DNA from: a virus
Direction: 5' to 3' (one strand)
IMG/VR virus record: IMGVR_UViG_3300030389_001340
Span: 1 to 21,800 of that record
DNA length: 21,800 bases
Shown piece after piece: positions 6,856 through 21,800 of the stretch. The notes beneath the pieces are model-generated. The model saw nothing but the letters and a program-made list of their open reading frames with translations. It was not told the DNA's origin and searched no databases. Position 1 is the first letter of the stretch; each line of letters begins with the position of its first letter. Position numbers and translations under genes: made by a program.

Positions 6856-6864
6856 TAACTATTA

Positions 6865-7848: not shown

Positions 7849-7885
7849 TTTTTCGTCCCTCCTTTGGGTTAAAAATTAAGTTAAT

Positions 7886-8833: not shown

Positions 8834-9613
8834 TTAACTACGGATATTTGGAGGTCCTAACATACTTTCTGTTATGAGGTTTTCTTCCTCTTCTCTTGCT
8901 AACAGTGGATTCACTGTAGAAACAGTTTCTGGTCGATTAATATTAAAAGTCATTTCAACTTCTTTTTTTCTCATATCAGACATGTTATCATCATCCATTG
9001 CTGAATGAGGACCACCATGTTCCATAGCTTTTCTATCTTCCCCAGCATCAAAAGCAGCTTCAGCATCCTTCATCATTTTGAGAAGGTTGTCTGAACCAAT
9101 CTGCTTTACTGATTTTGCTGTAAAGACAAATTCTCCATCCGATAACCTTGCAGGTATCGAATCAGAGGTCCCAGTGCCGGGTCCTTCGACTTCTCCGGCT
9201 CCAGTAAACTCCGAAGCTTTTTCCACTACTTTGTCGAATATCATACTCAACTCAGGATTAGCTTCTAGTTGTTCCATTAACATAGACTCTTCTTTGTCGG
9301 ATAGAGCTTCATCTATCACAAAGTCTACAAATTGTTGTTCCATTTGTTCATCAGGTATCATCTTATCTTCTTCAGACATCATCTTAGCTTCTTCACCATC
9401 AGCATACATAGCTTTCATTTTATCTTCTTCTTCTTTCATCAACTTTACCATGTCACCATCTGCTTTAGGTTCTCTCATTTCTTTTTTATCTTTAGCAGCT
9501 TCTTTCATAGGTTCTTCTTTATCACCATCACCATCTAAATCTAAAAAGTCTGGTTTTGAAACTTCATCACCATTTCTATATGAATATCTATCTTTATCTT
9601 TTTTTAGTATCAT
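8834..9613 (-). CDS. Acidic virion-associated protein with SDSIPARLSDGEFV motif
   Basis: The 259-residue protein begins with a basic stretch and DFLDLDGDGDKEEPMKEA (about 22-39, a Ca-loop-like Asp/Gly run), then a long Met/Glu/Lys/Asp-rich low-complexity helix region to about residue 90. GPGTGTSDSIPARLSDGEFV (144-163) is a motif that I know from phage tape-measure and other internal virion proteins, especially in marine phages. The remainder is charged. The start overlaps the stop of the 77-residue gene (ATGA) and has its own site (AAAGGAAG). It lies between portal and scaffold, so a portal-associated or injected head protein is the best guess. Confidence 0.65.
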   Translation of the reverse strand: MILKKDKDRYSYRNGDEVSKPDFLDLDGDGDKEEPMKEAAKDKKEMREPKADGDMVKLMKEEEDKMKAMYADGEEAKMMSEEDKMIPDEQMEQQFVDFVIDEALSDKEESMLMEQLEANPELSMIFDKVVEKASEFTGAGEVEGPGTGTSDSIPARLSDGEFVFTAKSVKQIGSDNLLKMMKDAEAAFDAGEDRKAMEHGGPHSAMDDDNMSDMRKKEVEMTFNINRPETVSTVNPLLAREEEENLITESMLGPPNIRS

Positions 9614-9843
9614 TTTTCTTCCTTTCTATTCAGGGCTTCCTGTATCTGTCCCTTGAGCTGCTCCAACTGTACCACTAAACGCATCTTCCCCTGCAACCGG
9701 TACATTTCCGATTCCGATGTTGCCACCACCAGTGCCTGTAGGTCCAAGCTCTTGAGGTTGTTGAGGTGTTCCAGTAATGCCTCCCATAGGTCCTTGTTGT
9801 TCACCAGTGGGTTCAGTTTCTTCGCCAATTTCTTGTCTAGCAT
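9610..9843 (-). CDS. 77-residue helical protein encoded inside the portal 3' end, in the +1 frame
   Basis: The ORF (MLDKKLAKKLNPLVNNKDLW, then ALLEHLNNLKSLDL and QGKMRLVVQLEQLKGQIQ) overlaps the last 218 bases of the portal gene on the same strand in another frame. It is very likely real: TAGGA lies 7 bases before its ATG, it ends in an exact ATGA overlap with the next gene, and its sequence is an ordinary well-mixed helical protein rather than low-complexity shadow. It resembles short accessory proteins that I recall near portal or tail genes of other podoviruses, with the LVxATSExEMxRLQGK pattern. It is probably a small helical virion or assembly factor; function is unproven. Confidence 0.78.
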   Translation of the reverse strand: MLDKKLAKKLNPLVNNKDLWEALLEHLNNLKSLDLQALVVATSESEMYRLQGKMRLVVQLEQLKGQIQEALNRKEEK

Positions 9844-11863: not shown

Positions 11864-11866
11864 ATA

Positions 11867-13462
11867 TTAATATCCAAAAGTCGAATCTGCTGGATTAAAA
11901 TACGATTGTTCTTTTAATCTTTTTAATTCATCGTAAGTAGACTGCACTCTTGGTCTGCTCATTATCATATATCGTAATGCATCATAAGCATGGTCTGAGG
12001 CATGGGTATCTACATCTTCAGAATTATTTTTAGACAATGGAATACTTTGCAATTCTCTAATTAAATTCTTACAAGTATTAAAAATTTGTAATCTAGGTCT
12101 GCCACTAGGTTGCACTTTTAAATACTCATGTATTTGTATTTTTCCTTGTACTCTATTTTTATCTGCTCTTCTGAGTTTATGACCCATTTTTTGCAGAGTT
12201 TCTCCAACAGTAGGACCGGTTGTTCCTGTTCTTGCCCAAGCTGCAGTATCAAGTACCCCTGAAACTGAAACTGGGTCTTCTAGTTCCATACTAGATATTA
12301 TACTACCTAATTCTTCTCCTGTCAAGCCTTTTTGATATAATTCTCGATAAATTATCAAAGTTCCATCATTTATATCAACTGCACCCCATAAACAACAGCT
12401 CTCTGAAGCATAACCATAGTCTATTCCTTTTACTCTTTGCCAATGCACAGGTATCTCAAAAGGAGCCACTACATGATTTTCTACTTCAAATTCTGCAAAT
12501 GCTGCACCTTCTGCAATATCCCAATTACCTTCAAGTAATTGTCTTCTTTGTGTTGGAGGCAAAGATTGTAACATTTTTTCATATACACCATCTTCAGCAA
12601 GATATGGGTTATCAACTAATTTAGCAGGAATAAATTTTCTTGATAGACCATCTGCTCCCACAAAAGATGTATTATTTTCAGAAGGGTCTACATATCTTTT
12701 TTTAACCCAACTAGCACCTACACCTCCGGGATTAGCTGTGCATCTTAAATATGTTTTAATACTTTTATCTGTTGTTCTTAAACGAGATGCTAAATAATTC
12801 CAACCAAACTCTGTAGGTAAATGTGTTATCTCATCAAAACCTATCCAAGAATATGCTTGTCCTTGGTATCTATAAACATCTGCATCTTTTTCTAAGAAAC
12901 CAAATTCAATTTTAGCTCCTGATGGAAAGTTCCAAACTTTCTCAACTTCTCTAAATTTAGCACCGGGAAATGCTTGTGGATATAATTCTCTAGACTTATC
13001 AATAAGTTCTCTAAGTTCAGGCATAGACCTTCTAAGAATTAAAGCTCTATGTGCTTTCTTATGGCAGTATCTTAGAGGGTCTACTAACATAGCATAGGAT
13101 TTACCACCACCAGCAGCACCACCATATAAAACATCTTTTTCATCTGCAGCTAAAAAATCAGTTTGTGGTCCTTCGTTGGGTTGAAACAATACTGTATCTG
13201 AACTTATGGCATCAGCTACTGATTGTGGCAAATCTTTTAATTTATCTTCTGATATAACTTGATTATCTGAAGTATTGTCAAGTTTAGACAAAACTTCTTT
13301 AGATTTTTTTAAGGAATTTTTTTTGTTGTTTAAAGTTGTTTCCAACTTTTTAATTTGAGCTTCTTTGGTTTTTAAAGTTCGTTTAACTTTAGTTTTTTGA
13401 GCTTTTGCTTTTTTTACATCACTAAGAACTTCATCTAGTGTTGGTCTGCCTCTCTTTGCCAT
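11867..13462 (-). CDS. terL: Terminase large subunit (ATPase and nuclease)
   Basis: This 531-residue protein is the DNA-packaging motor. The Walker A loop is GGAAGGGKS at residues 114-122, Walker B is WIGFDE at 206-211, and a coupling motif TANPGG lies at 242-247. The nuclease (RNase H-fold) half shows GIDYG with D348, LDTAAW with D405 and HASDHAYDALRY with D490, the usual three acidic metal ligands. It would translocate DNA through the portal and cut it. Unusual is an N-terminal extension of about 80 residues before the ATPase core, very Lys-rich and predicted coiled coil (KRTLKTKEAQIKKLETTLNN). The first 32 bases overlap the preceding gene. Confidence 0.96.
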   Translation of the reverse strand: MAKRGRPTLDEVLSDVKKAKAQKTKVKRTLKTKEAQIKKLETTLNNKKNSLKKSKEVLSKLDNTSDNQVISEDKLKDLPQSVADAISSDTVLFQPNEGPQTDFLAADEKDVLYGGAAGGGKSYAMLVDPLRYCHKKAHRALILRRSMPELRELIDKSRELYPQAFPGAKFREVEKVWNFPSGAKIEFGFLEKDADVYRYQGQAYSWIGFDEITHLPTEFGWNYLASRLRTTDKSIKTYLRCTANPGGVGASWVKKRYVDPSENNTSFVGADGLSRKFIPAKLVDNPYLAEDGVYEKMLQSLPPTQRRQLLEGNWDIAEGAAFAEFEVENHVVAPFEIPVHWQRVKGIDYGYASESCCLWGAVDINDGTLIIYRELYQKGLTGEELGSIISSMELEDPVSVSGVLDTAAWARTGTTGPTVGETLQKMGHKLRRADKNRVQGKIQIHEYLKVQPSGRPRLQIFNTCKNLIRELQSIPLSKNNSEDVDTHASDHAYDALRYMIMSRPRVQSTYDELKRLKEQSYFNPADSTFGY

Positions 13463-13700
13463 ATTTTTTATCCATGTGTTTTTTAAGTCCGGCTTTTGAT
13501 AATGTTCGACCTACTTTGTAGTCTAGCCAATCTGATGCTGTTTGTAAACTTATCTCTTGTTTGTTTAACATGTCTTCAATAACTTCTAATGCTTCTAGTT
13601 GTTCTGGTACAGGTTTTAAATGTCCAACTACATTTGACTCCTCATAACCAAAAGGTATAGTTGATGAGGTTCTTCTTATATAACCATCAGGCAATAACAT
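13431..13700 (-). CDS. 89-residue helical protein upstream of terL, HTH-like
   Basis: The protein begins MLLPDGYIRRTSSTIPFGYE; the centre (VPEQLEALEVIEDMLNKQEI) is helical, and SLQTASDWLDYKVGRTLSKA with GLKKHMDKKYG at about residues 51-80 resembles a recombinase-type helix-turn-helix (helix, W-L-x-x-x-x-G-R, S-x-x-G-L-K-K). I recall similar elements next to, or fused to, the large terminase in marine phages. It overlaps terL by 32 bases and its ATG overlaps the upstream stop (TAATG). A DNA-recognition helper for packaging is a reasonable guess; no biochemical role is known to me. Confidence 0.75.
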   Translation of the reverse strand: MLLPDGYIRRTSSTIPFGYEESNVVGHLKPVPEQLEALEVIEDMLNKQEISLQTASDWLDYKVGRTLSKAGLKKHMDKKYGKERQTNTR

Positions 13701-13963
13701 TATTTTGTCCTACGATACTTTCTTACTTTTTTAGCTATTTTTTTAGGTTGTTTAGAAAACTGTTTACCTTTTTTAGTATCTTTTCTTTTTTTACGACTTG
13801 TTGCAGCATATTCAGCTGCTGTTAAAGACTTAATAGCTTTTTCAGGTAAATATCTTTCTCCAGTTTTAGCAGAAGGTTTGCCTGACTTAGTTCGCCATTT
13901 TTGATTACCCCATTCTACTAAACTCTTTTGAGACTTTTTTAAATTTCTAGTTTTTCTTGCCAT
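13700..13963 (-). CDS. 87-residue highly basic protein
   Basis: MARKTRNLKKSQKSLVEWGN, then QKWRTKSGKPSAKTGERYLP and EKAIKSLTAAEYAATSRKK; the C-terminal third is almost all Lys and Arg (GKQFSKQPKKIAKKVRKYRR). By my count 32 of 87 residues are Lys or Arg against five acidic ones. I recall near-identical short proteins in marine phage genomes, catalogued as a domain of unknown function. The charge, size and late-operon position suggest DNA binding inside the head or at the packaging complex, but this is inference. The TAA overlaps the next ATG. Confidence 0.82.
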   Translation of the reverse strand: MARKTRNLKKSQKSLVEWGNQKWRTKSGKPSAKTGERYLPEKAIKSLTAAEYAATSRKKRKDTKKGKQFSKQPKKIAKKVRKYRRTK

Positions 13964-13964
13964 A

Positions 13965-14156
13965 TTAAATTTTCCAAAAAAATGAAGACATTACAAACAA
14001 CCATGATACAACTTGCATAATAGTTGCTAACAAAATTACCTTAAACTGTATATCTGCTTGAGGTTTAAGCTCTTGTTCAAACCACTCTTGACACTCTTCA
14101 GGAGTTGCATCTCTTGTAACTTGTAAGTGTAATTCAAGTTGTTGTTCATACTTCAC
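13965..14156 (-). CDS. 63-residue protein with one C-terminal membrane helix
   Basis: The N-terminal half (MKYEQQLELHLQVTRDATPE, then ECQEWFEQELKPQADIQFKV) is acidic and soluble; residues about 40-62 (ILLATIMQVVSWLFVMSSFF) are a clear membrane segment with W-K-I at the end. It is the only obvious membrane protein among the basic micro-genes here. The ATG overlaps the stop of the upstream gene (ATGA). A tail-anchored protein with its main domain in the cytoplasm is expected. A holin-like or membrane-tethering role is possible; nothing identifies it. Confidence 0.75.
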   Translation of the reverse strand: MKYEQQLELHLQVTRDATPEECQEWFEQELKPQADIQFKVILLATIMQVVSWLFVMSSFFWKI

Positions 14157-14437
14157 TTTGTTTTTTTATGTTTTTTTCTAATAGCTTCTTTGCCTTTCTT
14201 AGCTATTCTTGCTTGTTCGTTTTTACCTGCAACCTTGGCTCGTTGTTCTAAGACAGTAAGTATTTGTATTTTACGAGCATAAGGTTTTTTTATTCTTTTA
14301 ACTTTAGCAACAGTTGCTCTAGCATCTGCTGGGGTTGCAAACTTTATACTAACTGTATCTTTAGGATTTTCGTCAGTATATAACCTACGACCACTACCTT
14401 TTGGTTTTTTTCCTGTTCCTTTTTTTGGGTCTGGCAT
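14153..14437 (-). CDS. 94-residue highly basic protein
   Basis: The protein reads MPDPKKGTGKKPKGSGRRLY, then TDENPKDTVSIKFATPADAR and ATVAKVKRIKKPYARKIQIL, ending in a Lys-rich tail (KKGKEAIRKKHKKTK). By my count about 30 of 94 residues are Lys or Arg against eight acidic ones. The central segment (DTVSIKFATPADARATVAKV) looks folded, while both ends look disordered. The start is used inside the 44-residue gene upstream in another frame, with AAAGGAT about 9 bases before the ATG. A nucleic-acid-binding role is inferred from charge only. Confidence 0.72.
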   Translation of the reverse strand: MPDPKKGTGKKPKGSGRRLYTDENPKDTVSIKFATPADARATVAKVKRIKKPYARKIQILTVLEQRAKVAGKNEQARIAKKGKEAIRKKHKKTK

Positions 14438-14528
14438 ATGGTGCTATCCTTTTTCCTGCTTTGTTATACTTTCCTGATTTCTTTTTTGCTATCGCAATAG
14501 CTGCTCTTTGAGCTGCACTACGAGACAT
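14394..14528 (-). CDS. 44-residue basic protein, overlapping its neighbour
   Basis: This short ORF reads MSRSAAQRAAIAIAKKKSGK, then YNKAGKRIAPYARPKKRNRK and KTKR. Three facts support it: GGAGG lies 9 bases before the ATG, the ATG overlaps the upstream TAA (TAATG), and the start MSRSAAQRAAIAIAKKK is a pattern that I associate with small marine phage proteins. It shares its last 44 bases with the start of the 94-residue gene in another frame, an overlap much longer than at other junctions here. It is another strongly basic peptide of unknown role. Confidence 0.62.
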   Translation of the reverse strand: MSRSAAQRAAIAIAKKKSGKYNKAGKRIAPYARPKKRNRKKTKR

Positions 14529-14722
14529 TATTTATAGCCTCCACCTTTAGCTTTATATTCTTTGGCTAAAAGCTGGGCTTTTCGAGCTGACCACTGACCG
14601 GGTTTACCACCTTTAGAACCGGCTTTAATCCTCTGGAAAAGCCTCTTACGCATAGTCGGCTTGGTATAATTACCAGCTTCATTAACACGAGACTTACTTT
14701 TTTTCTTTGCTTTTCTGGGCAT
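14528..14722 (-). CDS. 64-residue basic protein with GKPGQWSARKAQL motif (DUF5872-like)
   Basis: MPRKAKKKSKSRVNEAGNYT is followed by KPTMRKRLFQRIKAGSKGGK and PGQWSARKAQLLAKEYKAKG. The GGKPGQWSARKAQLLxxEYKxxGGGY element is one that I remember from a domain of unknown function (DUF5872, by memory) found in phages and in some large algal viruses. The shared element across such different viruses suggests a virus-specific role, perhaps in DNA condensation, but none is established. Its start lies inside the preceding gene by 29 bases. Confidence 0.8.
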   Translation of the reverse strand: MPRKAKKKSKSRVNEAGNYTKPTMRKRLFQRIKAGSKGGKPGQWSARKAQLLAKEYKAKGGGYK

Positions 14723-14858
14723 TGTTTACTCCAAATATTTTATCAAAATTATTTCTATATTCTTTTGTGTATACTCCGGGTCTAGCTTTAGAACCTTTAC
14801 CAGCTATAGTACCTGTTTTAAATTTTATTGGGTGTTCTTTACTATTTATTTGAGGCAT
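14694..14858 (-). CDS. 54-residue basic protein
   Basis: I place the start at ATG 14858 (MPQINSKEHPIKFKTGTIAG, then KGSKARPGVYTKEYRNNFDK). An earlier in-frame TTG at 14879 would add seven residues, but it lies inside the upstream gene and lacks a ribosome site at a usable distance, whereas ATG 14858 overlaps the upstream TAA (TAATG), the usual junction here. The protein is basic, with a Gly/Lys-rich N-terminal half and a short C-terminal helix (FDKIFGVNNAQKSKEKK). Function is unknown. Confidence 0.68.
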   Translation of the reverse strand: MPQINSKEHPIKFKTGTIAGKGSKARPGVYTKEYRNNFDKIFGVNNAQKSKEKK

Positions 14859-14986
14859 TATTTTCTTTTTAGTGTCCAAGCCTCGTTTCTAAACTTAGTT
14901 TTCTTTTTATCTGGAACATAGCGACCTTTTGAATCTCTATTTCTAACCCAGATAAAACCCAACCATTGTAATATTTTATCTAACAT
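14858..14986 (-). CDS. 42-residue basic protein
   Basis: This short ORF fills an otherwise unexplained gap: MLDKILQWLGFIWVRNRDSK, then GRYVPDKKKTKFRNEAWTLK and RK. It starts 5 bases after the upstream stop and its TAA overlaps the next ATG. The mix of an amphipathic start (LDKILQWLGFIWV) and a basic Asp-Ser-Lys-Gly-Arg-Tyr-Val turn is protein-like and resembles a short marine phage family that I faintly recall. The hydrophobic start could touch a membrane or a partner protein. Function is unknown. Confidence 0.66.
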   Translation of the reverse strand: MLDKILQWLGFIWVRNRDSKGRYVPDKKKTKFRNEAWTLKRK

Positions 14987-14991
14987 AATAT

Positions 14992-15306
14992 TTACCATTT
15001 AACTTTATCTGCCCACCATGCTGCTGACATCTTGCCTTTGGCAATATTCTTAGCATGTCGAGCTTTAAAAGATTTTCTTTTTGCTTTCATACGAGCCGAC
15101 TCACCTGCTTTAGGCTTACCAGCTGTACCTTCTAAAGTACCAACCTTTTTACCTTGTTGACCAAATCTTATAAGTTTTATCTTATGACCTTCTTGAGCTA
15201 AAACCATATGCGATTTAGTAGGATGTTTAGGAGTTCGTTTAGCTTTATTAACTCCTTTCAATCCATATTTTTTTAGCATTGCTGCTTTTCTATCGGCATG
15301 TGGCAT
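14992..15306 (-). CDS. 104-residue basic protein with SFKARHAKNIAKGKMSAAWW motif
   Basis: The protein opens MPHADRKAAMLKKYGLKGVN, continues with RTPKHPTKSHMVLAQEGHKI and KLIRFGQQGKKVGTLEGTAG, and ends with KRKSFKARHAKNIAKGKMSA and AWWADKVKW. I recall the pattern HPTKSHxVxAxEGxKxKxIRFGxQG plus KSFKARHAKNIAKGKMSAAxWxxKVKW as a family of unknown function shared by marine phages and some eukaryotic algal viruses. The central part is beta-like, the ends helical and basic. It is the best conserved of the micro-genes to my eye. A DNA- or RNA-binding structural role is plausible but unproven. ATG overlaps the upstream TAA. Confidence 0.84.
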   Translation of the reverse strand: MPHADRKAAMLKKYGLKGVNKAKRTPKHPTKSHMVLAQEGHKIKLIRFGQQGKKVGTLEGTAGKPKAGESARMKAKRKSFKARHAKNIAKGKMSAAWWADKVKW

Positions 15307-15488
15307 TAGTGTATAACTTTTTTAGGTTCCTCTTCTTCTACTCTTAATTCGTGTAATTCACCAACCAAAATTAATTCATACTCATAAGCAATCTTTTCAG
15401 CTTCTGCTAACGATTCTGCTCTTATATATGGACCAATAAACTTTTTATTGTCTAGTGGGTCTGTTATTTCAGTTAGGAATATCCTCAT
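15306..15488 (-). CDS. 60-residue small acidic alpha/beta protein
   Basis: MRIFLTEITDPLDNKKFIGP, then YIRAESLAEAEKIAYEYELI and LVGELHELRVEEEEP; a strand-helix-strand pattern with EAEKIAYEYELILVGEL. It is the only acidic gene in the stretch between the terminase subunits. GAGGA lies 8 bases before the ATG, and it overlaps the small terminase 3' end by 20 bases. Similar short proteins with an A-E-A-x-x-I-A helix and L-V-G-E-L strand are common beside phage terminase genes, as I recall. Function is unknown. Confidence 0.78.
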   Translation of the reverse strand: MRIFLTEITDPLDNKKFIGPYIRAESLAEAEKIAYEYELILVGELHELRVEEEEPKKVIH

Positions 15489-15894
15489 TATTTAAATCCT
15501 CATAATCAACATTTATTACTTCTTGTTTTTCAGGCAGAATAAAAATACCCCCTGACGAAGTATGATTAACATTAAGTCGTTCTGTTTTAGTAACACCGAC
15601 TCTATCTAATATATTTTGAGCTGCTTGTAGTTTATTATTAGCTTGTGGCACCGGTCTATTCGATTCCATAACTTCAATTAACTTAAAAGCTGCCCTAGGT
15701 GCAGACCTTGCAAGTACCTCCGAGGCTAAATCTATCACTTCATCTTTAAGACTTTTTAATACTTGTTGATGATTGCCTGAGTAACCTGCTAATTCGGCTG
15801 CTAGTTTAGGGTCGCCTTGTGTTTCCACAAGACAATCTAAGAACTTTTGTTGTTTCTCAGTAAGAGTTTTCTTACGAGGTTCTAAATAACTCAT
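15469..15894 (-). CDS. terS: Terminase small subunit, possibly leaderless
   Basis: The protein of 141 residues starts MSYLEPRKKTLTEKQQKFLD at ATG 15894. DPKLAAELAGYSGNHQQVLK (residues 28-47) is a helix-turn-helix as in small terminase subunits, followed by a helical oligomerisation region (SAPRAAFKLIEVMESNRPVP) and LDRVGVTKTERLNVN with a Gly-Gly-Ile-Phe-Ile-Leu-Pro ending typical of TerS C-termini. It would recognise the packaging site and load TerL. The open frame extends to TTG 15942, but a perfect promoter lies inside that extension, and the expected transcription start is the A of ATG 15894. Other starts are ATG 15900 and ATG 15909; none has a clear ribosome site. Confidence 0.86.
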   Translation of the reverse strand: MSYLEPRKKTLTEKQQKFLDCLVETQGDPKLAAELAGYSGNHQQVLKSLKDEVIDLASEVLARSAPRAAFKLIEVMESNRPVPQANNKLQAAQNILDRVGVTKTERLNVNHTSSGGIFILPEKQEVINVDYEDLNNEDIPN

Positions 15895-15900
15895 AAACAT

Positions 15901-15929
15901 ATTATACATTTTATTTACCAGTTTGTCAA
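15901..15929 (-). promoter_or_regulatory. Consensus sigma-70 promoter of the late operon (leftward)
   Basis: On the minus strand TTGACA (15929-15924), 17 bases, TATAAT (15906-15901): every position matches the consensus. Transcription would start about 7 bases after the -10 box, at or near 15894, the first base of the terS ATG. It should drive the whole leftward operon using host RNA polymerase. Confidence 0.88.
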
Positions 15930-15959
15930 TAGTATTAAGCAAATTGTGTAAAGTTTGCC

Positions 15960-15978
15960 AAACCCCTTGACAAATAAC
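15960..15978 (+). repeat. 19-base direct repeat containing a -35 box (copy 1)
   Basis: AAACCCCTTGACAAATAAC recurs at 16438-16456 as AAACCCCTTGACAAACAAC, 18 of 19 bases identical, both on the plus strand. Each copy carries the TTGACA of a rightward promoter, so the match extends beyond a -35 box and suggests a shared regulator site or duplication. Confidence 0.8.
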
Positions 15979-15995
15979 AAATAAAAGTGTATAAT
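15967..15995 (+). promoter_or_regulatory. Consensus sigma-70 promoter, rightward
   Basis: TTGACA (15967-15972), 17 bases, TATAAT (15990-15995) is a perfect consensus promoter on the plus strand, 38 bases from the equally perfect leftward one. Transcription would begin near 16002. The first gene in this direction starts at 16575, so the transcript would have a leader of more than 550 bases, beginning with a weak hairpin (GGTTGCATA 16015-16023 with TATACAACC 16033-16041). It may feed the first rightward gene or make a small RNA. Confidence 0.82.
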
Positions 15996-16194
15996 AAAAC
16001 TGTAAGTTTGGCAGGGTTGCATATACACCTAATATACAACCGAGTCAAACAAGTCTTATATATTCCCTTGCAAAACCTTGTTAAAAATTACATTAAAACT
16101 ACAGGCGATTTTATCTGGTTAACACTATAAATCTTTGTGAAATGTATGTCCATTATATATATACCAGTACACCCCCCATGGCACTCTGCCCACC

Positions 16195-16223
16195 CCTATA
16201 ACATATTTTACAAAGGTTGTCAA
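16195..16223 (-). promoter_or_regulatory. Probable second leftward promoter
   Basis: Minus strand TTGACA (16223-16218), 17 bases, TATAGG (16200-16195). The -35 box is perfect and the -10 box matches four of six. It would start near 16188 and reach terS through a leader of about 290 bases. An ACTGT-N8-ACAGT dyad lies just upstream. Confidence 0.5.
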
Positions 16224-16347
16224 TACTGTCTATTTATACAGTGCCTAGCCCTTACCACATTTTATAAACTTTGTCAAGTGTTTTAGCACATAACATAATT
16301 TTGCAAATTTGTCAAGGGTTTTAAAAAGATTTTACAAAACTTGACAA
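16205..16347. repeat. Four related 19-base motifs, consensus ATTTTACAAANNTTGWCAA
   Basis: ATTTTACAAAGGTTGTCAA (16205-16223), ATTTTATAAACTTTGTCAA (16259-16277), AATTTTGCAAATTTGTCAA (16297-16315, one base shifted) and ATTTTACAAAACTTGACAA (16329-16347) share a pattern. A weaker relative is ATTTTACAAAGTTGCATAA (16421-16439). Each of the first four ends on a TTGACA or its complement. They could be binding sites for a phage regulator that overlaps the -35 boxes. Confidence 0.6.
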
Positions 16348-16437
16348 ATTGAAAAAACTAGTTTACAAGCCCTTGCAAAATTTAATGAGCTTGTAAAATT
16401 AAAAAAATACATTTTGCAAGATTTTACAAAGTTGCAT

Positions 16438-16456
16438 AAACCCCTTGACAAACAAC
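16438..16456 (+). repeat. 19-base direct repeat containing a -35 box (copy 2)
   Basis: This is the second copy of the element at 15960-15978, differing at one base. The -10 position here reads TATGGC (16468-16473), weaker than in copy 1. Confidence 0.75.
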
Positions 16457-16503
16457 CCAAAAAATGATATGGCAAAAAAAGAGGGTTTTTTTTCATATAA
16501 CTA

Positions 16504-16532
16504 TTGACACCATTTATGAATATGTCATTATT
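16504..16532 (+). promoter_or_regulatory. Possible promoter of the first rightward gene
   Basis: TTGACA (16504-16509) with a weak -10 at 17 bases (ATTATT, 16527-16532), or TATTAC two bases further on. It lies about 45 bases before the gene at 16575, the natural place for its promoter. Confidence 0.45.
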
Positions 16533-16574
16533 ACTACATGAAGAAATTAACTACACATTTTAAAGGAGGAAAAA

Positions 16575-16859
16575 ATGTCAGAATTAACTATTCATAACGT
16601 GCAAAAAGTAGAAGTCGTGGAGATAAACAAACTTCACCACGAAGATGGTAGAAAATGTTATTGTGCTCAATTAGAAATAACATCTAGAAAATATATTACT
16701 GATTTAGAAGTGTGCAAGTGGGATAAAGAACACCTTACAGACGAAGGAAAAGATGCTGAACTTTCGGGATATGCTGATATAGTTACTAGATTATCTTTAT
16801 TTGCAGATAGTAAAGAGGCGTTAGAAGTAAAATTAAATGCTTTTAAGGAGGATGAATAA
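16575..16859 (+). CDS. 94-residue acidic protein, first rightward gene
   Basis: The start has a near-perfect ribosome site (AAAGGAGG, 16562-16569). The protein reads MSELTIHNVQKVEVVEINKL, then HHEDGRKCYCAQLEITSRKY, with a beta-strand-rich first half and a helical end (LSLFADSKEALEVKLNAFKE). Acidic residues outnumber basic ones. It is followed at once by a terminator, so it forms a one-gene unit. Strong translation and the position next to the control region suit an immediate-early host-takeover factor, but I do not recognise the family. Confidence 0.85.
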   Translation: MSELTIHNVQKVEVVEINKLHHEDGRKCYCAQLEITSRKYITDLEVCKWDKEHLTDEGKDAELSGYADIVTRLSLFADSKEALEVKLNAFKEDE

Positions 16860-16860
16860 T

Positions 16861-16884
16861 AGGGGGGTTTTTACCCCCTTTTTA
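16861..16884 (+). terminator. Rho-independent terminator
   Basis: A run of six G, a TTTTTA loop, five C and five T gives a stem of 5 G-C pairs (7 with A-T and G-T ends) directly after the stop of the 94-residue gene. Confidence 0.85.
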
Positions 16885-16895
16885 TTGGAGAAAAA

Positions 16896-17027
16896 ATGAC
16901 AGATTTAAAACAAGAAATAAAATTAAATCAAGATACTAAAAATGTTGGAGAAGTTCCAAACCTTGATAATGATGAAACTATATCAAGAACAATATTGACA
17001 CCTGAAGAAAGTCAAGGCATATTTTAA
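16896..17027 (+). CDS. 43-residue acidic protein
   Basis: TTGGAG lies 5 bases before ATG 16896. The peptide reads MTDLKQEIKLNQDTKNVGEV, then PNLDNDETISRTILTPEESQ and GIF. It is acidic, without Cys or Trp, and probably disordered. It lies between two terminators, so its transcript must either leak through the first or start inside 16861-16895; I see no clear promoter there. A small inhibitor peptide of a host enzyme is one possibility; no family is recognised. Confidence 0.7.
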   Translation: MTDLKQEIKLNQDTKNVGEVPNLDNDETISRTILTPEESQGIF

Positions 17028-17044
17028 AATAATATCTTGAAACT

Positions 17045-17072
17045 AACCCCCTGAAATATGGGGGTTTTTTTT
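17045..17072 (+). terminator. Rho-independent terminator, loop TGAAATAT
   Basis: AACCCCC, loop TGAAATAT, GGGGGTT and a run of eight T (from 17065). The loop sequence is the same as in the terminator at 17514-17542. Confidence 0.92.
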
Positions 17073-17092
17073 GTCTTTTAAAAGCTCTTATT

Positions 17093-17106
17093 TGCGTTCT
17101 AACGCA
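17093..17106. promoter_or_regulatory. 14-base inverted repeat TGCGTT-CT-AACGCA
   Basis: A perfect 6-base dyad with a 2-base centre lies about 66 bases upstream of the promoter at 17172. No T-run follows it. It has the size of an operator half-site pair, but no partner is known. Confidence 0.35.
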
Positions 17107-17171
17107 TTCTTTTACATTAAGCAAGGGTAGAGCAAGGGGGTAAAATAAACCTATATTTTTTTATTTAAACC

Positions 17172-17199
17172 TTGACAAAGGTTTTAAAATGTGCATACT
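17172..17199 (+). promoter_or_regulatory. Promoter overlapping the next gene start
   Basis: TTGACA (17172-17177), 16 bases, CATACT (17194-17199; four of six). The upstream terminator at 17045 isolates the next gene, so a promoter is needed here. Transcription would start near 17206, inside the frame as opened at 17189 and next to ATG 17207. Confidence 0.55.
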
Positions 17200-17494
17200 T
17201 GATAATATGAATATTAAAGTAAAAAATATTACTAATGCGAATGGCAACAAAGTGCCAAATCAATTTGAAATAGTAGCACATGGCTCTACTATTTTTCAAA
17301 GTTATAATTCTACTATTGCTCTAGTTTCAGAAAATAGTAAAATATATTTAGATAAGTTTTATTGGGATTACTCAATTACTACTTTAAAACATCTGTATAA
17401 TTTCTTGGCACAATGGGGTTATGACCTCAACAAAAAGAAAGTATTACAGCTAATAGAAAAGGGGGAATTTGAATTAACAAATTTAAATAAATAA
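17189..17494 (+). CDS. Small phage protein, DUF8033-like (YWDYS-x-TT motif)
   Basis: The protein contains PNQFEIVAHGSTIFQSYNST, IALVSENSKIYLD and KFYWDYSITTLKHLYNFLAQ, a pattern (F-Q-S-Y, I-A, L-D-x-x-Y-W-D-Y-S-x-T-T-x-x-x-x-x-F-L) seen in many phages and, as I recall, named DUF8033. No function is established. Two starts compete: ATG 17189 has AAAGG at 7 bases (101 residues), while ATG 17207 (MNIKVKNITN, 95 residues) fits the overlapping promoter, which would remove the ribosome site from the RNA. The gene has its own terminator and looks like an independent transcription unit. Confidence 0.82.
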   Translation: MCILDNMNIKVKNITNANGNKVPNQFEIVAHGSTIFQSYNSTIALVSENSKIYLDKFYWDYSITTLKHLYNFLAQWGYDLNKKKVLQLIEKGEFELTNLNK

Positions 17495-17513
17495 TAAATC
17501 CATAATCCCCAAT

Positions 17514-17542
17514 AAACCCCTTGAAATATAGGGGTTTTTTTT
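17514..17542 (+). terminator. Rho-independent terminator, loop TGAAATAT
   Basis: AAACCCCT, loop TGAAATAT, AGGGGTTT, then eight T (17535-17542). The stem has 8 pairs. Loop and layout repeat the terminator at 17045. Confidence 0.92.
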
Positions 17543-17586
17543 ATTTTAAATGTCTGAAAAATTTGCGTATATCTCCCCATTATATA

Positions 17587-17615
17587 ATACTACAACAAAA
17601 ATATTTTTGTGTCAA
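17587..17615 (-). promoter_or_regulatory. Possible leftward promoter facing the early cassettes
   Basis: Minus strand TTGACA (17615-17610), 17 bases, TAGTAT (17592-17587; four of six). It would transcribe leftward, antisense to the genes at 16575-17494. No minus-strand gene is seen there. Confidence 0.4.
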
Positions 17616-17666
17616 GTCTTTTATGTCATAATTTTTATTTATATTATATTATAACTTATACTTATG

Positions 17667-17834
17667 TATAGATATTATTTATAGTATGTTATAAATTATA
17701 GTTATGTATAAATAATATTTATATTTAATTATTAATTTTAATTATGTTGTAAGATATAAACAATATTTATATTACAATATAAATTTTAGTTATGTATAAA
17801 CAATATTTATATTATGTTATAAGTTTGATTGTGA
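17667..17834 (+). repeat. Four AT-rich direct repeats with 40/48/40-base period
   Basis: Units begin at 17667, 17707, 17755 and 17795. Units 3 and 4 share the exact 20 bases TATAAACAATATTTATATTA; unit 2 has TATAAATAATATTTATATTT; unit 1 is more diverged (TATAGATATTATTTATAG). Units 1 and 3 end in TAGTTATG just before the next unit. The near-constant spacing of about four helical turns is iteron-like. Confidence 0.78.
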
Positions 17835-18147
17835 CAATTATGTGACATTTATTATAAAATGCTTGACATTTACAGAACAGTTTAGAAAAAGTTTTTAGTG
17901 CTAGGATATGCATATTTAATAAACAGGTCTTAAAACTCAAATATGACAACGAGAGAAACAATTTTAATTTGTCAAGGGGTAAAGTAAAAAAGTATGTATT
18001 ATTTTTTATTATAAGATAATTAAAAAAGTTCTTGCATTTTAACAAAAGTTGTGATAGTCTTTATTACAATACTTTATAAGTATTATTATTAATAATTTTT
18101 ATAAGTATTATAATATTTAAAATATTATAATTAATTATAAATATTAC

Positions 18148-18176
18148 TTGACAATATAAAATTTATAGAGTATTAT
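18148..18176 (+). promoter_or_regulatory. Strong sigma-70-type promoter of the right operon
   Basis: TTGACA (18148-18153), 17 bases, TATTAT (18171-18176; five of six). Transcription would start near 18183, 26 bases before the first gene of the operon. Confidence 0.8.
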
Positions 18177-18208
18177 GTGTTTGTTAATTGTATTAATAGG
18201 ATTGAAAT

Positions 18209-18418
18209 ATGTTAAATGTAAATGTTTCCGACCTGTTTTTTAACTTTGAGCATGAGCATTATGACAGAGTAATGTATACCATTGACCCAACGCAAGAGGA
18301 AATTTACTTAGCCCTCAAAAGAGATGCAAGTTTTTTCTTAGATTGTTTTGGCGATTTTAATATTAACTTTGGTTATACTGTTGATGACTTATGCAAAGAT
18401 TTTTTAAGTAGGTTATAA
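18209..18418 (+). CDS. 69-residue acidic protein
   Basis: MLNVNVSDLFFNFEHEHYDR is followed by VMYTIDPTQEEIYLALKRDA and SFFLDCFGDFNINFGYTVDD. The protein is acidic and aromatic-rich, ending in a short helix (LCKDFLSRL). AGGA lies 7 bases before the ATG, and the strong promoter at 18148 is directly upstream. It is the first gene of the operon and is separated from the second by a long hairpin, so its level may be set apart from the rest. No family is recognised. Confidence 0.78.
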   Translation: MLNVNVSDLFFNFEHEHYDRVMYTIDPTQEEIYLALKRDASFFLDCFGDFNINFGYTVDDLCKDFLSRL

Positions 18419-18420
18419 TT

Positions 18421-18467
18421 TTTAAACCCTATGTTTAGTAAAATCTTTATTAAATGTGGGGTTTAAA
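18421..18467 (+). ncRNA. 22-bp RNA hairpin between genes, possible processing or attenuation site
   Basis: Bases 18421-18442 pair with 18446-18467 in an unbroken 22-bp stem closed by a 3-base loop (ATC). The outer nine pairs are perfect (TTTAAACCC with GGGTTTAAA). The upper part has four G-U wobbles that would be mismatches on the minus strand, so the plus-strand RNA is the likely functional form. No long T-run follows, which fits an RNase III-type processing site or leaky attenuator better than a standard terminator. Confidence 0.75.
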
Positions 18468-18516
18468 TTTACTACTTAACAAATACTAATTTTAAAACTT
18501 AATAAGGGTTTTTATT

Positions 18517-18828
18517 ATGATAGATAAATTACTATTCGATAAAAGAAAATTTAATGTTGTAAAAAATAATGGCTTTTATATTATACAACATAAAAGTAGT
18601 GGCACAGTCTTAACAGAAAAAGTTAGACAAAAGTTTGATGTTAAAAATTTAGTCTTGACTTTTACAAATAATTGTGTTAGATTGGAAAGTATAAAAAGGT
18701 ATAATGATTTTGGCGATACCATAAACAGTAAAGGCAAAGTTATTAAAACAAGAAATGCTAGATATACAATTCATGCTAGAGATACCAAGCAGAAATTTCC
18801 TAGCTTTCCCAAATTTTTAGGAGTGTAA
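18517..18828 (+). CDS. 103-residue basic protein of unknown function
   Basis: AAGGG lies 8 bases before the ATG. The protein reads MIDKLLFDKRKFNVVKNNGF, then YIIQHKSSGTVLTEKVRQKF; a beta-rich first half is followed by NDFGDTINSKGKVIKTRNAR and YTIHARDTKQKFPSFPKFLG. It is basic, unlike its acidic neighbours. The IxxHxSSGTVLT line looks like an exposed hairpin. I do not recognise a family. It is coupled to the next gene with a 1-base gap. Confidence 0.78.
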   Translation: MIDKLLFDKRKFNVVKNNGFYIIQHKSSGTVLTEKVRQKFDVKNLVLTFTNNCVRLESIKRYNDFGDTINSKGKVIKTRNARYTIHARDTKQKFPSFPKFLGV

Positions 18829-18829
18829 A

Positions 18830-19054
18830 ATGCAAAAAGATAATAGAAAACATACGATTGATAATGACATTAATTTAAGTGTTAGAATTAAAGAGTTAGA
18901 AAATTTAGTTAATGAAATTCAAAGAACTAAAAATTGGATTGAGGGTGCTTTGTTTTGTGAGCCAAATTTACCTCATCATAAAAGAAGATTAAAAAAGTTA
19001 ATGAACTTAGCTGAAATTAAATTGCATCAAGCAAAAAATAGGGCTTTTTGTTAA
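18830..19054 (+). CDS. 74-residue helical protein
   Basis: MQKDNRKHTIDNDINLSVRI is followed by KELENLVNEIQRTKNWIEGA and LPHHKRRLKKLMNLAEIKLH. Two long helices with a Phe-Cys-Glu-Pro-Asn-Leu-Pro turn suggest an alpha-hairpin or coiled-coil dimer. TTAGGAG lies 6 bases before the ATG. Function is unknown. Confidence 0.75.
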   Translation: MQKDNRKHTIDNDINLSVRIKELENLVNEIQRTKNWIEGALFCEPNLPHHKRRLKKLMNLAEIKLHQAKNRAFC

Positions 19055-19062
19055 GGAGTAAT

Positions 19063-19638
19063 ATGAATAAGAATAATTTAAAAGACTTAAACGATACCAT
19101 TAAAATGGGCAACAAATTATTAAATACTTATGTGGGAGATGTGCCTCACAAATTTAATAAAGATGGAAGTAGAAATAAAAATGTAAAAACACATGAAGAT
19201 TTCTATAAGACTAAATCTGGTTTTACCATTGTGCATGAACGACAAGATGGTAGTTCACCTTTAGATGATAGTAATAAAAACTATGGTATGTATGGCAAGG
19301 GCATTTGGTTTGATTTAGAAAATGGTTATAAAGTTTCTATTCAATTTGGTAAAACTAATTATTGCTCTAACTATACTAATAGAATTGGAGAAAAAGAATT
19401 ACCATTTGACTATGTGTTAAAAACAACAGAGGATAGCACAGAAGATGAAAGATTTACGACTTCTATGACTGCCGAAGTTTTAGTTATGAAACCTAACGGA
19501 AAATGGCTAGAGCCATACAAAAAAGATGGAGAAGTTAGGTATAATCAAAGCTATAATAATGTTTCCGAGGTTATAGAAATTCTTAATTATGCTAATAGTT
19601 TAGAGCCAAACAACTATGGCAGAGTGGCTAAGAAATAA
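19063..19638 (+). CDS. 191-residue protein, conserved-looking, unknown function
   Basis: I use ATG 19063 (MNKNNLKDLNDTIKMGNKLL), which follows AAGGAG by 5 bases; an in-frame TTG at 19048 lies inside the previous gene. The middle has GMYGKGIWFDLENGYKVSIQ then FGKTNYCSNYTNR, followed by a strand with MTAEVLVMKPNGKWLEPYKK and a helix (VSEVIEILNYANSL). This order (strand around GYxVSIQFG, a Cys-Ser-Asn turn, an AEVxVxxxxGxW strand, a V-x-E-V-I-x-I-L helix) recalls uncharacterised early proteins of other marine phages. Largest gene of the right operon. Function is unknown. Confidence 0.8.
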   Translation: MNKNNLKDLNDTIKMGNKLLNTYVGDVPHKFNKDGSRNKNVKTHEDFYKTKSGFTIVHERQDGSSPLDDSNKNYGMYGKGIWFDLENGYKVSIQFGKTNYCSNYTNRIGEKELPFDYVLKTTEDSTEDERFTTSMTAEVLVMKPNGKWLEPYKKDGEVRYNQSYNNVSEVIEILNYANSLEPNNYGRVAKK

Positions 19639-19648
19639 AAGGAGTAAT

Positions 19649-19858
19649 ATGAAAATAAATATAAATATAGAAACAGATAACTCAGCATTTTGGAATCATT
19701 GTGAGAGTTCCGAAAATCCAACATTTGAATATGCTGAAGTTGAAAGAATATTAAAAGAGATAATGCCAAAATTTGAGCATAGAGATTTTGGAAAATGTAT
19801 TGATATAAATGGGAATACAGTTGGCACATATACTGTTGAAAGAGATAATGAGGAGTAA
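19649..19858 (+). CDS. 69-residue acidic protein
   Basis: The start at ATG 19649 (MKININIETDNSAFWNHCES) has AAAGGAG 5 bases upstream; an in-frame ATG at 19616 lies inside the previous gene and lacks a site. The C-terminal half has VERILKEIMPKFEHRDFGKC and IDINGNTVGTYTVERDNEE. The strand, helix, strand-turn-strand order (ending DxNGNxVGxxxV) is typical of small phage accessory proteins of unknown function. Confidence 0.78.
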   Translation: MKININIETDNSAFWNHCESSENPTFEYAEVERILKEIMPKFEHRDFGKCIDINGNTVGTYTVERDNEE

Positions 19859-19859
19859 T

Positions 19860-19979
19860 ATGAAAAAATTATTTGACAAATTAGATTATGTGTATGATAA
19901 TCATTTTTATAAAGTTAAACTATTTCAATTTAGTTTAGTGATATTGTTTGCAATAATTGGATTAAACATTGTAAGGTAA
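19860..19979 (+). CDS. 39-residue single-pass membrane peptide
   Basis: The ORF begins MKKLFDKLDYVYDNHFYKVK and ends LFQFSLVILFAIIGLNIVR; residues about 21-37 form one membrane helix. GAGGAG lies 4 bases before the ATG (19852-19855), overlapping the end of the previous gene with a 1-base gap between them. A positive N-terminal part with a hydrophobic tail suggests insertion with the N-terminus in the cytoplasm. Possibly a membrane-remodelling or superinfection-exclusion peptide; unproven. Confidence 0.66.
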   Translation: MKKLFDKLDYVYDNHFYKVKLFQFSLVILFAIIGLNIVR

Positions 19980-19984
19980 AAATT

Positions 19985-20224
19985 ATGAATAGTAAAAGTT
20001 ATGAAGATAAAAATTATGAGTTGTATAGTATTGAGAAAGATTTACTAGAAGAATTAGAAGATAGCAAAGAAAAAATATTAGCAGATGATGATGTTAATTA
20101 TAGTAATAAAATGGCATTTTATAAAATCGTAATAACTACTCAAGAGCGAATGAATAAAACTACTGACAAATATTTAAGTGAGGTTGCTAATTCATGGTTA
20201 GCAAAGCAACAAGAAAAAGAATAA
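19985..20224 (+). CDS. 79-residue acidic helical protein
   Basis: MNSKSYEDKNYELYSIEKDL, then LEELEDSKEKILADDDVNYS and IVITTQERMNKTTDKYLSEV. It is acidic, mostly helical, with no Cys. AAGG lies 8 bases before the ATG. It is the last gene before a 292-base gene-free stretch. Function is unknown. Confidence 0.75.
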   Translation: MNSKSYEDKNYELYSIEKDLLEELEDSKEKILADDDVNYSNKMAFYKIVITTQERMNKTTDKYLSEVANSWLAKQQEKE

Positions 20225-20257
20225 AAATAAAAACATATACTTATTTTAATTTTACTA

Positions 20258-20286
20258 TTGACAAGATTAAAAAATTATGAAACAAT
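20258..20286 (+). promoter_or_regulatory. Possible promoter of the second right-hand block
   Basis: TTGACA (20258-20263), 17 bases, AACAAT (20281-20286; four of six). It would yield a transcript with a leader of about 220 bases before the gene at 20517. Confidence 0.45.
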
Positions 20287-20516
20287 AATTATTAATTTGG
20301 GGCGAGAATGTTAGCGTAGCTCTAGGAGGTCGTGTTTTTTGGTAATGACATTTGACTAATAACTATAAACTATAACCTATACTTTGTATAAAAAACCAAA
20401 TGCTAACAGGGGAATGAGTAGATTTTTTATCAAAAGTTTCCCTTTTATTTTCTGTAGTAAAAGACTACTACTACATAAAAAAGTGTAGTCTGTTTAAACT
20501 AGCCAAGGAGGGCGAT
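20287..20516 (+). other. Gene-free leader with competing inverted repeats
   Basis: TGTTAGC (20309-20315) can pair with GCTAACA (20402-20408). Near the end GTAGT (20454-20458) can pair with ACTAC (20464-20468), and the same bases can instead pair as AGACTAC (20462-20468) with GTAGTCT (20485-20491). These last two cannot form together, as in an attenuator. The strong ribosome site AAGGAGG (20505-20511) follows. No tRNA or known riboswitch was recognised. Confidence 0.45.
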
Positions 20517-20708
20517 ATGTTTAGTATAAAAACTTTTAGTGGTAATAATTACCTCAATACTAGATACACACATTGTAGTATTCTAGGTTTTAAATTTAGA
20601 GTTGCATATCATAAGAGAGGTATGCAAAGTAAGTATGGCACTTATGCTACAGGGCGAGGCAGAGTATTTAACTTTGGTAAGCACTACCTTTCATTCATAG
20701 GTGTATAA
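20517..20708 (+). CDS. 63-residue basic protein
   Basis: AAGGAGG lies 5 bases before the ATG. The protein reads MFSIKTFSGNNYLNTRYTHC, then SILGFKFRVAYHKRGMQSKY and GTYATGRGRVFNFGKHYLSF. It is beta-rich, basic and aromatic, with a Lys/Arg/Gly loop that could contact nucleic acid. The stop overlaps the next ATG (TAATG). No family is recognised. Confidence 0.78.
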   Translation: MFSIKTFSGNNYLNTRYTHCSILGFKFRVAYHKRGMQSKYGTYATGRGRVFNFGKHYLSFIGV

Positions 20709-20929
20709 TGATAGACGATAAAGATATTAAGGCACAAGCAGACTTAATAACTGATGGTATAATGGGGGGTAGTGAGTGGCAGACATACCCCCTGCCAATA
20801 ACAATAGTCGAAGCAATAAATACTATTGATGATGTTATTACTAGAGAAGTTGCTTGGGCAGACGGAGATACTTCAGACATAGAAAAATCTTGGAGTATGA
20901 TATTAGAAAAGATAGGAGAACTAACATGA
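20708..20929 (+). CDS. 73-residue acidic protein
   Basis: MIDDKDIKAQADLITDGIMG is followed by GSEWQTYPLPITIVEAINTI and DDVITREVAWADGDTSDIEK. It is acidic and helical. Start and stop overlap both neighbours (TAATG before, ATGA after), a strong sign of a real coupled gene. Function is unknown. Confidence 0.8.
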   Translation: MIDDKDIKAQADLITDGIMGGSEWQTYPLPITIVEAINTIDDVITREVAWADGDTSDIEKSWSMILEKIGELT

Positions 20930-21294
20930 CTGATATAACAAATGCAGATGATGTAATAGATAGTAGAGATATACTTGAATATATAGAAAAGTATAAAGAC
21001 GATAAAGACTTTGAGGAAGAAGTAAAAGCATTACAAGATATGGTAGATGAGTATTGTAATAACTATACTAATACTGACCGAACTTATGATGGCTTGGAGG
21101 ACTTAAAGTGTGGATTGACTTTCATTAGAGATAGTTATTTTGAAGATTATATGTGGGATTACTTTCGTGAAGTTAATCAAGTAGATGAGGCTTTAGAATG
21201 TTATATAGACATTGAGGCTTTTGCTCGTGACCAACAATACGATTATGATAGTGTTAATTTTAGTGGCATAGACTATTGGTTTTATAACCATTAA
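20926..21294 (+). CDS. 122-residue acidic protein with ArdA-like C-terminus, possible anti-restriction factor
   Basis: The start at ATG 20926 (MTDITNADDVIDSRDILEYI) overlaps the previous stop (ATGA) and has AGGAG 7 bases upstream; the open frame extends further up to 20854 but lies inside the previous gene there. The C-terminal half has SYFEDYMWDYFREVNQVDEA and LECYIDIEAFARDQQYDYDS, resembling the E-x-Y-F-x-D-Y and Y-I-D-x-E-A-F-x-R-D-x-x-x-D signature of ArdA-type antirestriction proteins. It is very acidic, as expected of a DNA mimic. It is shorter than typical ArdA (about 165 residues) and similarity covers only the end, so the family call is tentative. Confidence 0.72.
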   Translation: MTDITNADDVIDSRDILEYIEKYKDDKDFEEEVKALQDMVDEYCNNYTNTDRTYDGLEDLKCGLTFIRDSYFEDYMWDYFREVNQVDEALECYIDIEAFARDQQYDYDSVNFSGIDYWFYNH

Positions 21295-21320
21295 AGGAGA
21301 AAAAGAAATGAGTAATTATT
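21291..21320 (+). repeat. Exact 30-base repeat of a translation start (copy 1)
   Basis: The 30 bases holding AAAGGAG, spacer, ATG and the first four codons (M-S-N-Y) are repeated exactly at 21599-21628. Both copies start a gene. Confidence 0.92.
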
Positions 21321-21619
21321 TTGTAATACATACAGTTAATAGAGATGGTCAGTTTATATATTATGATAAATTATTTATAAAATCTAATTTATCTATGAAA
21401 GAACTTGAAACTGACGAATTTGAAATGAAGTTCTTAGATTGGGAGTTTGGTTTAGACGAGCCTATATCAAAAGATGATGAAGAATTTTGGTCAGATGGTA
21501 GGTGTGTTTGTATTGAAGATATTTATGAAGTTGATGTAGAAGATATAACTTTATTAAAAAAGTATCACTACTTTATTGATTTAGATAACGCTATGAATTT
21601 AAAGGAGAAAAAGAAATGA
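21308..21619 (+). CDS. 103-residue acidic protein
   Basis: MSNYFVIHTVNRDGQFIYYD is followed by KLFIKSNLSMKELETDEFEM and WSDGRCVCIEDIYEVDVEDI. The order strand, strand, helix, then D-G-R-x-x-x-I-x-D strand and a final helix recalls uncharacterised early proteins of phages. AAAGGAG lies 9 bases before the ATG. The stop overlaps the next ATG (ATGA). It is strongly acidic (EFGLDEPISKDDEEF). Function is unknown. Confidence 0.8.
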   Translation: MSNYFVIHTVNRDGQFIYYDKLFIKSNLSMKELETDEFEMKFLDWEFGLDEPISKDDEEFWSDGRCVCIEDIYEVDVEDITLLKKYHYFIDLDNAMNLKEKKK

Positions 21620-21628
21620 GTAATTATT
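21599..21628 (+). repeat. Exact 30-base repeat of a translation start (copy 2)
   Basis: Identical to 21291-21320. It overlaps the end of the 103-residue gene, so the same bases also encode its Lys-rich C-terminus (NLKEKKK). Confidence 0.92.
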
Positions 21629-21800
21629 GGAATAGTAATGGTAAGTATCAAGAGTTAGGAGATAAACTAATGGAGTTGATACCTGATATAGATGAGGTAG
21701 AAAATGCAGAGGATAATCCTAAACTAGAAAGGTTTAGAAAACTTGTTAATGCTTACTACGATTTATATAACAATGGTGGTGGTAATGAGAATAGAAGAGC
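21616..21800 (+). CDS. 5' part of an acidic protein (partial, cut by window edge)
   Basis: The frame opens at ATG 21616 (MSNYWNSNGKYQELGDKLME), continues LIPDIDEVENAEDNPKLERF and RKLVNAYYDLYNNGGGNENR and runs off the window without a stop. It shares its start region exactly with the previous gene. It is acidic and helical, with a Gly/Asn-rich turn. No family is recognised. Confidence 0.75.
   Translation, partial: MSNYWNSNGKYQELGDKLMELIPDIDEVENAEDNPKLERFRKLVNAYYDLYNNGGGNENRR

Follow-up and report, generated by a model that had tools for sequence, protein, structure and literature searches.

A palindromic repeat array in an AT-rich gap of an HTVC103P-type podovirus is probably a replication start or an early-gene switch

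We describe a 714-bp non-coding gap (positions 17495-18208, 17.8% GC) in an HTVC103P-type podovirus that is probably either a replication start or a switch for early genes. A cis-acting replication start is our best reading, though we give it slightly less than even odds; an operator array comes close behind, and both readings could hold together. The anatomy of the site, with its repeated sites, meltable DNA, promoter-like sites and a self-loading replisome of the T7 kind, fits a replication start.

The window, by which we mean the whole 21.8-kb virus record analyzed (21,800 nucleotides), is a fragment of an HTVC103P-type podovirus. SAR11 bacteria are the hosts of cultured HTVC103P-type phages, and the window virus probably infects abundant ocean bacteria. 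The window portal protein is 60-64.5% identical to those of the Pelagibacter phages HTVC115P, HTVC103P and HTVC104P, and shares about 50% identity with that of Puniceispirillum phage HMO-2011; no isolate phage matched window positions 16000-21800 at the DNA level. One report describes the HTVC103P-type group as joining an HMO-2011-type capsid and packaging module to replication genes of its own (PMC8528129). Genes for tail, capsid, portal and terminase proteins run leftward at 321-15942, and small rightward genes start at 16575. An ArdA-like anti-restriction protein is encoded at 20854-21294 (PHROG 2059, E 6e-6; the Pfam ArdA match is below cut-off), and a homolog is present in the record of the relative L108. 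A C-rich element (ACACCCCCCATGGCACTCTGCCCACCCC) at 16160-16200, within the gap next to TerS, is a possible packaging site or TerS leader; comparable stretches are found at roughly the corresponding position in L127, L132, L164, L120, L009 and HTVC104P.

The preliminary description had placed the repeats in a gene-free, very AT-rich setting, which the 714-bp gap bears out. The gap does not separate divergent operons; it lies inside the rightward arm, with ORFs 17189-17494 and 18209-18418 on either side. Its features are as follows.

17514..17537, + strand: hairpin resembling an intrinsic terminator, downstream of ORF 17189-17494 and retained in L083, L084 and L085
17640..17835, no strand assigned: zone A, AT-rich repeat array, 11.2% GC
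17667..17683, + strand: unit 1 core, TATAGATATTATTTATA, two differences from the consensus; L085 has one unit fewer here
17707..17723, + strand: unit 2 core, TATAAATAATATTTATA, a perfect palindrome
17755..17771, + strand: unit 3 core, TATAAACAATATTTATA
17795..17811, + strand: unit 4 core, adjoining the TGTGACA pair and recognisable in the aligned near relatives
17830..17847, + strand: TGTGACAATTATGTGACA, two copies of an 11-bp-phased motif (the TGTGACA pair)
17863..17990, + strand: conserved TTGACA-led element of about 120 bp, following zone A
about 18060..18175, no strand assigned: zone B, a second easily melted AT zone with 9/18/25-bp repeats
18148..18176, + strand: best sigma-70-like promoter match of the region, TTGACA-17-TATTAT (11/12), ahead of ORF 18209-18418

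Zone A holds four copies of a 17-bp near-palindrome, TATAAAYAATATTTATA, starting at 17667, 17707, 17755 and 17795; the 40/48/40 spacing is as first noticed, and the 20 identical bases reported for units 3 and 4 are indeed there (TATAAACAATATTTATATTA). The core is a near-perfect dyad with 8-bp arms around a 1-bp centre, a symmetry that the preliminary description had not mentioned. Compared with itself by ungapped alignment, the 714-bp stretch gives a best score of 40.5, at offset 40, far beyond its dinucleotide shuffles (n=500; mean 12.1, maximum 19.0; 0/500 reach 40.5), and Tandem Repeats Finder reports a period of 40 bp and 4.8 copies at the array. The four repeats exceed the minimum of three direct repeats of a binding site by which an iteron origin is recognised. 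Because of their dyad symmetry, the repeats would be expected to bind a protein. The dyad is largely confined to this locus: when up to two mismatches are allowed, all four places found in the near relative G001, and nine of 13 in G003, fall inside zone A.

Iteron origins also have an easily melted AT-rich region next to the repeats, and one is present here. Stability was calculated from nearest-neighbour energies in windows of 100 bp, and zones A and B proved, by a wide margin, to be the two least stable 100-bp stretches in the record studied here and in G001 (46.8 kb), G002 (25.5 kb) and G003 (36.6 kb): they stand at about -0.90 kcal/mol per step, the third-ranked stretch at about -1.03 (-1.00 in G003). 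The least stable 100 bp of our record is 17636-17736. In three of the six isolates (HTVC115P, HMO-2011 and CRP-1) the least stable stretch of the genome is found roughly 1 kb or less from where the leftward module ends; in HTVC103P and HTVC033P the second least stable lies no more than 0.6 kb from that point, and in HTVC104P the stretch near it ranks fourth in instability.

The hairpin at 17514-17537 is terminator-like and may close the upstream unit. A promoter at 17831-17858 had been proposed to lead to no gene; the match is present, weak (10/12 consensus positions, 18-nt spacer), and points at ORF 18209, 350 bp on. The -35 of the better match at 18148-18176 is kept in L083, L084 and L085, and promoter-like matches across the region are in modest excess (31 against 21.8, sd 6.0, in shuffles). 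Zone B lies 0.4 kb from zone A, and its repeats, at about 18060-18145, differ from those of zone A. The motif of TGTGACAATTATGTGACA makes longer arrays in other relatives, and the element at 17863-17990 is tandemly duplicated in L108 and L193. We rejected a coding role for this element: the frame 17867-18016 is open with no ATG, is interrupted by an in-frame stop in L084 and shows no concentration of substitutions at third positions. A structured RNA was likewise rejected, the fold z-score of 0.30 not exceeding shuffles, and Rfam gave no match anywhere in the window. For ORF 18517, considered as a candidate regulator gene, a single-sequence structure prediction reached a pLDDT of 41, too poor a model to use.

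All five near relatives that reach the site (L083, L084, L085, L108 and L193) keep the repeats, in two to four copies; their absence from close relatives had been named beforehand as an observation that would count against an origin. L083, L084 and L085 were also recovered by ORF 18517 alone, and L108 by terminase similarity alone; L003, the nearest by portal, stops about 330 bp past TerS and is outside this count. The gap is 92-97% identical to that of the window in L083, L084 and L085, the last with one unit fewer. L108 and L193, which are 95.5% alike, differ by one 49-bp unit; they retain a related array, with about 80% identity to the window over the element beside it, and at that level of identity one can still recognise, in L108, the unit next to TGTGACA as well as the TTGAC element. 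A gap of about 0.7-0.9 kb persists among the near relatives while the cassettes around it change: ORF 17189 on the left is replaced in L083 and L084, and ORF 18209, the first gene on the right, is missing in L084. In L009 (83% TerS identity) the array can no longer be made out at this position. Between TerS and the array, L108 carries a leftward 211-aa gene (PHROG 6361; G001 reverse coordinates 12019-12654), so that the divergence point and the GC-skew minimum have moved beside the array.

Constraint on 17690-17835 is suggested by two comparisons and contradicted by one. Substitutions number 0/146 in this interval against 21/322 fourfold sites for L083, and 5/146 against 38/444 for L084; for L085 they number 4/134 against 3/281. 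Since the gap diverges more than fourfold sites in this one of three comparisons, purifying selection is not established.

We extended the comparison to a non-redundant set of 73 relatives that contains the window and its own family. Of 80 loci, 28 were set aside for having too little DNA right of TerS; 81 sequences were reduced to 73 by dropping seven near-duplicates and one short sequence. Among 26 loci with at least 1.5 kb, 22 entered the set (L066, L074, L078 and L015 were left out); HMO-2011 and CRP-1 are outside it. Gap counts cover gaps of 180-1400 bp that are not cut by the end of a contig or 5-kb stretch, and rest on ORFs of at least 48 aa with ATG starts, so some gaps may hide short or GTG/TTG genes. 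Repeats scoring above all 100 shuffles were found in 45/69 gaps touching TerS, 5/27 starting 0.2-1.1 kb from it, 19/50 starting 1.1-2.3 kb from it (14/45 when the window's own family is left out) and 3/44 farther than 2.3 kb. At least one such gap lies within 2.3 kb of TerS, in what we call the hub, in 57/73 relatives; none was found there in the other 16, including the isolates HTVC115P and HTVC033P.

The type of repeat in the hub varies, with GTACCTT tandems (L026, L024 and L031), 33-bp units with TTGCACC (L077) and 8-bp units (L010). In the gap that matches the window's by gene order, L054 has one DnaA box, L056 four, and L059 and L060 two each; the four in L056 adjoin a 20%-GC stretch. The genes on both sides of the gap are homologous in L054, L056, L059, L060, L077 and L031, which indicates that the repeat type has been exchanged at an orthologous site. 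Pairs of TTGAKGGC adjoin the lineage-specific repeats of L005, L056 and L031 (gap 1.4-1.9 kb right of TerS), and similar sequences can be seen by eye in L054, L077 and L063.

Clusters of DnaA boxes (TTATNCACA, at least two in 150 bp) occur in 11/73 relatives, among them L107 of the window's own family; shuffled sets averaged 0.13, and a reversed control motif formed no clusters in the 73 relatives. The boxes are mostly near TerS, with 51/56 in the first 2 kb of stretches of up to 5 kb, and four of the five boxes in the whole records G009 and G007 are at the hub. An origin draws its strongest outside support from these predicted DnaA boxes, which lie in the corresponding hub of relatives and favour that reading. 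No DnaA box was found near the hub in the six isolates. The window has a single TTATNCACA, at 10254, outside the gap. DnaA boxes were rejected as the window's own array type: it holds no strict box, relaxed boxes (one mismatch) in the gap are at chance (2 against 2.16), and the box cluster of a DnaA-dependent origin is absent.

The TGTRACA motif recurs in pairs at 11-bp spacing (24 pairs in 11/73 relatives; shuffle mean 0.05), 15 of them in the hub. In the first 2.3 kb, pairs no more than 45 bp apart are spaced only by 11, 21-22, 32, 43 or 45 bp. In L155 and L169, TGTRACA arrays flank an AT-rich core on both sides, about 560-800 bases right of TerS. Repeats with the 11-bp phase also lie 2.6-4.4 kb out in L072, L168, L169, L171, L070 and L068.

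The window ends before the replication genes, which could be followed in its near relatives. G001 and G003 encode a primase-helicase of 559 aa and a polymerase of 575 aa, both of which match T7 proteins best among solved structures, and G001 thus carries a replisome of the T7 gp4/gp5 type. The top structure entries for the primase are labelled 'DNA primase/helicase', which we take to be T7 gp4. One source counts T7 gp4 among the helicases that do not depend on a separate loader (PMC3401641). The same polymerase family was found in 17 of the 19 records searched, in one as a fragment with 49% identity. The five longest rightward ORFs of G001 and G003 encode the large ribonucleotide reductase (RNR) subunit, the polymerase, the primase-helicase, the small RNR subunit and a Cas4-like exonuclease; the rest are shorter than 200 aa, and none above that length is unassigned. 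A T7-type origin would come with a phage RNA polymerase and its promoters; no such polymerase was seen in the contigs of G001 and G003, which are incomplete. The protein scan covered 20 window proteins (PHROGs; 10 also with Pfam), 9/54 ORFs of G001 and 11/47 of G003, and among these no initiator or iteron-binding gene, no repressor or other regulator gene, and no ParA/ParB or integrase was recognised. In 6/6 isolates the GC-skew minimum falls 0.08-1.7 kb beyond the leftward module, on its right side; genes change direction there too, so skew does not tell an effect of replication from one of gene orientation.

If the gap is a replication start, a dimeric DNA-binding protein from host or phage would bind the dyad array in zone A and bend or unwind the DNA, so that zone A, zone B or both would open. 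A transcript made by host RNA polymerase from promoter-like sites lying between and beside the zones may help opening or supply a primer. Copying by the T7-like polymerase would begin once the T7-like primase-helicase had loaded itself on the single-stranded DNA so exposed. Observed are the repeats with their symmetry, conservation and changing copy number, the two stability minima, their position and the T7-like replisome genes of near relatives; the start of replication here, the binding protein, the transcript and the opening zone are inferred. Of the origin design proposed in the preliminary description, the repeats, the meltable DNA and the promoter-like sites are present and were kept in the near relatives, which supports that design in part; the priming transcript is predicted from promoter-like matches, and an operator array would account for much of this anatomy as well. 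Against an origin count the lack of a recognised initiator among the scanned proteins, the lack of DnaA boxes in the window's array, the confounded skew and the occurrence of 11-bp arrays at several sites. The divergence of the L085 gap, the 16 relatives with no such hub gap, the three isolates whose least stable stretch lies away from the hub and the loss of a recognisable array in L009 also weigh against it.

These points leave room for a regulatory role, a serious possibility if a somewhat less probable one, in which several repressor or activator dimers, of phage or host, bind zone A and control the early rightward promoters (17831-17868 and 18148-18176), the AT zones serving as upstream promoter elements and long leaders. 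Dyad symmetry suits a dimeric regulator, and dyad sites do stand beside a promoter, itself identified by consensus match, in a region bounded by a terminator on one side and, on the other, by the best promoter match before the early genes. The 11-bp-phased TGTRACA repeats farther out in six relatives are what a multi-site regulator would give, and the type of iteron differs among relatives without a change of polymerase family, a pattern that a specific pairing of initiator and replisome would not simply predict. However, the zone-A dyad is nearly confined to its locus, unlike a regulon, and no repressor gene was recognised among the scanned proteins. Operators alone also do not explain the two stability minima or the DnaA-box clusters of relatives; DnaA can regulate transcription too.

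The remaining explanations are less probable still. The array may have no dedicated function and be a mutational by-product of a gene-poor, AT-rich cassette junction whose repeats expand and contract by recombination or slippage. The AT-biased genome, the swapping of adjacent cassettes, the changing number of units and the excess divergence of the L085 gap all suit this account, but we consider it unlikely, given a gap whose length persists though the cassettes on both sides change and a TGTGACA-side unit and TTGAC element that can still be recognised in L108. Packaging sites of other phages can have repeats near terS, and the gap that touches TerS contains repeats in many relatives, so recognition by terminase was also considered. 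The array stands 1.7 kb away from TerS with variable genes between them, and the gap adjacent to TerS (15943-16574) is a different one with a C-rich element of its own; this distance makes a packaging role for zone A very improbable. Least probable of all is a partition or nucleoid-anchoring site, an alternative raised earlier on the precedent of repeat arrays in centromere-like sites: the scanned part of the gene set contains no ParA/ParB or integrase, and no rightward ORF longer than 200 aa lacks an assignment in G001 or G003.

As a replication start, the gap would share features with several known systems. Like the iteron origins of plasmids and lambdoid phages, it has several direct repeats beside an AT-rich unwinding region and varies in copy number by whole units; unlike them, it has no recognised Rep/O-type initiator, its dyad units are 40-48 bp apart and the replisome is T7-like. 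The primary origin of T7 is an A/T-rich cluster at positions 3761-3821, as cited within PMC12839067. At both sites, promoter-like sequences adjoin an AT-rich region near the beginning of the rightward arm, and the near relatives of the window have gp4-like primase-helicase and gp5-like polymerase. They differ in that no T7-type RNA polymerase was seen in the near-relative contigs and in the repeat array added here; we know of no repeat array in the T7 primary origin. The boxes of L054, L056, L059 and L060, in the gap corresponding to the window's, resemble oriC-type origins with DnaA boxes, whereas the window's own array lacks such a cluster. The parts are of known kinds, and we have not found their combination described, namely a dyad array, two unwinding zones, a replisome of the T7 kind although no phage RNA polymerase was seen, and repeats exchanged at an orthologous gap. 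Among the papers on these phages that are open without subscription, we came across none that describes an origin or the repeats reported here.

A located origin would make the replication start of HTVC103P-type phages testable and would provide a cis element for replicons in hosts that have no genetic tools. The orthologous gap with its exchanged repeat types, DnaA boxes included, offers a concrete case for how a T7-like replisome is aimed. We also put forward, as a doubtful but possible extension, that the hub is a swappable origin cassette in which lineage-specific repeats serve a conserved, self-loading T7-like replisome. The sets exchanged would include TATAAAYAATATTTATA dyads, 11-bp TGTRACA arrays, GTACCTT tandems and host DnaA boxes. 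If this is true, a phage could adopt a new start signal, the host's own included, with its replication proteins unchanged.
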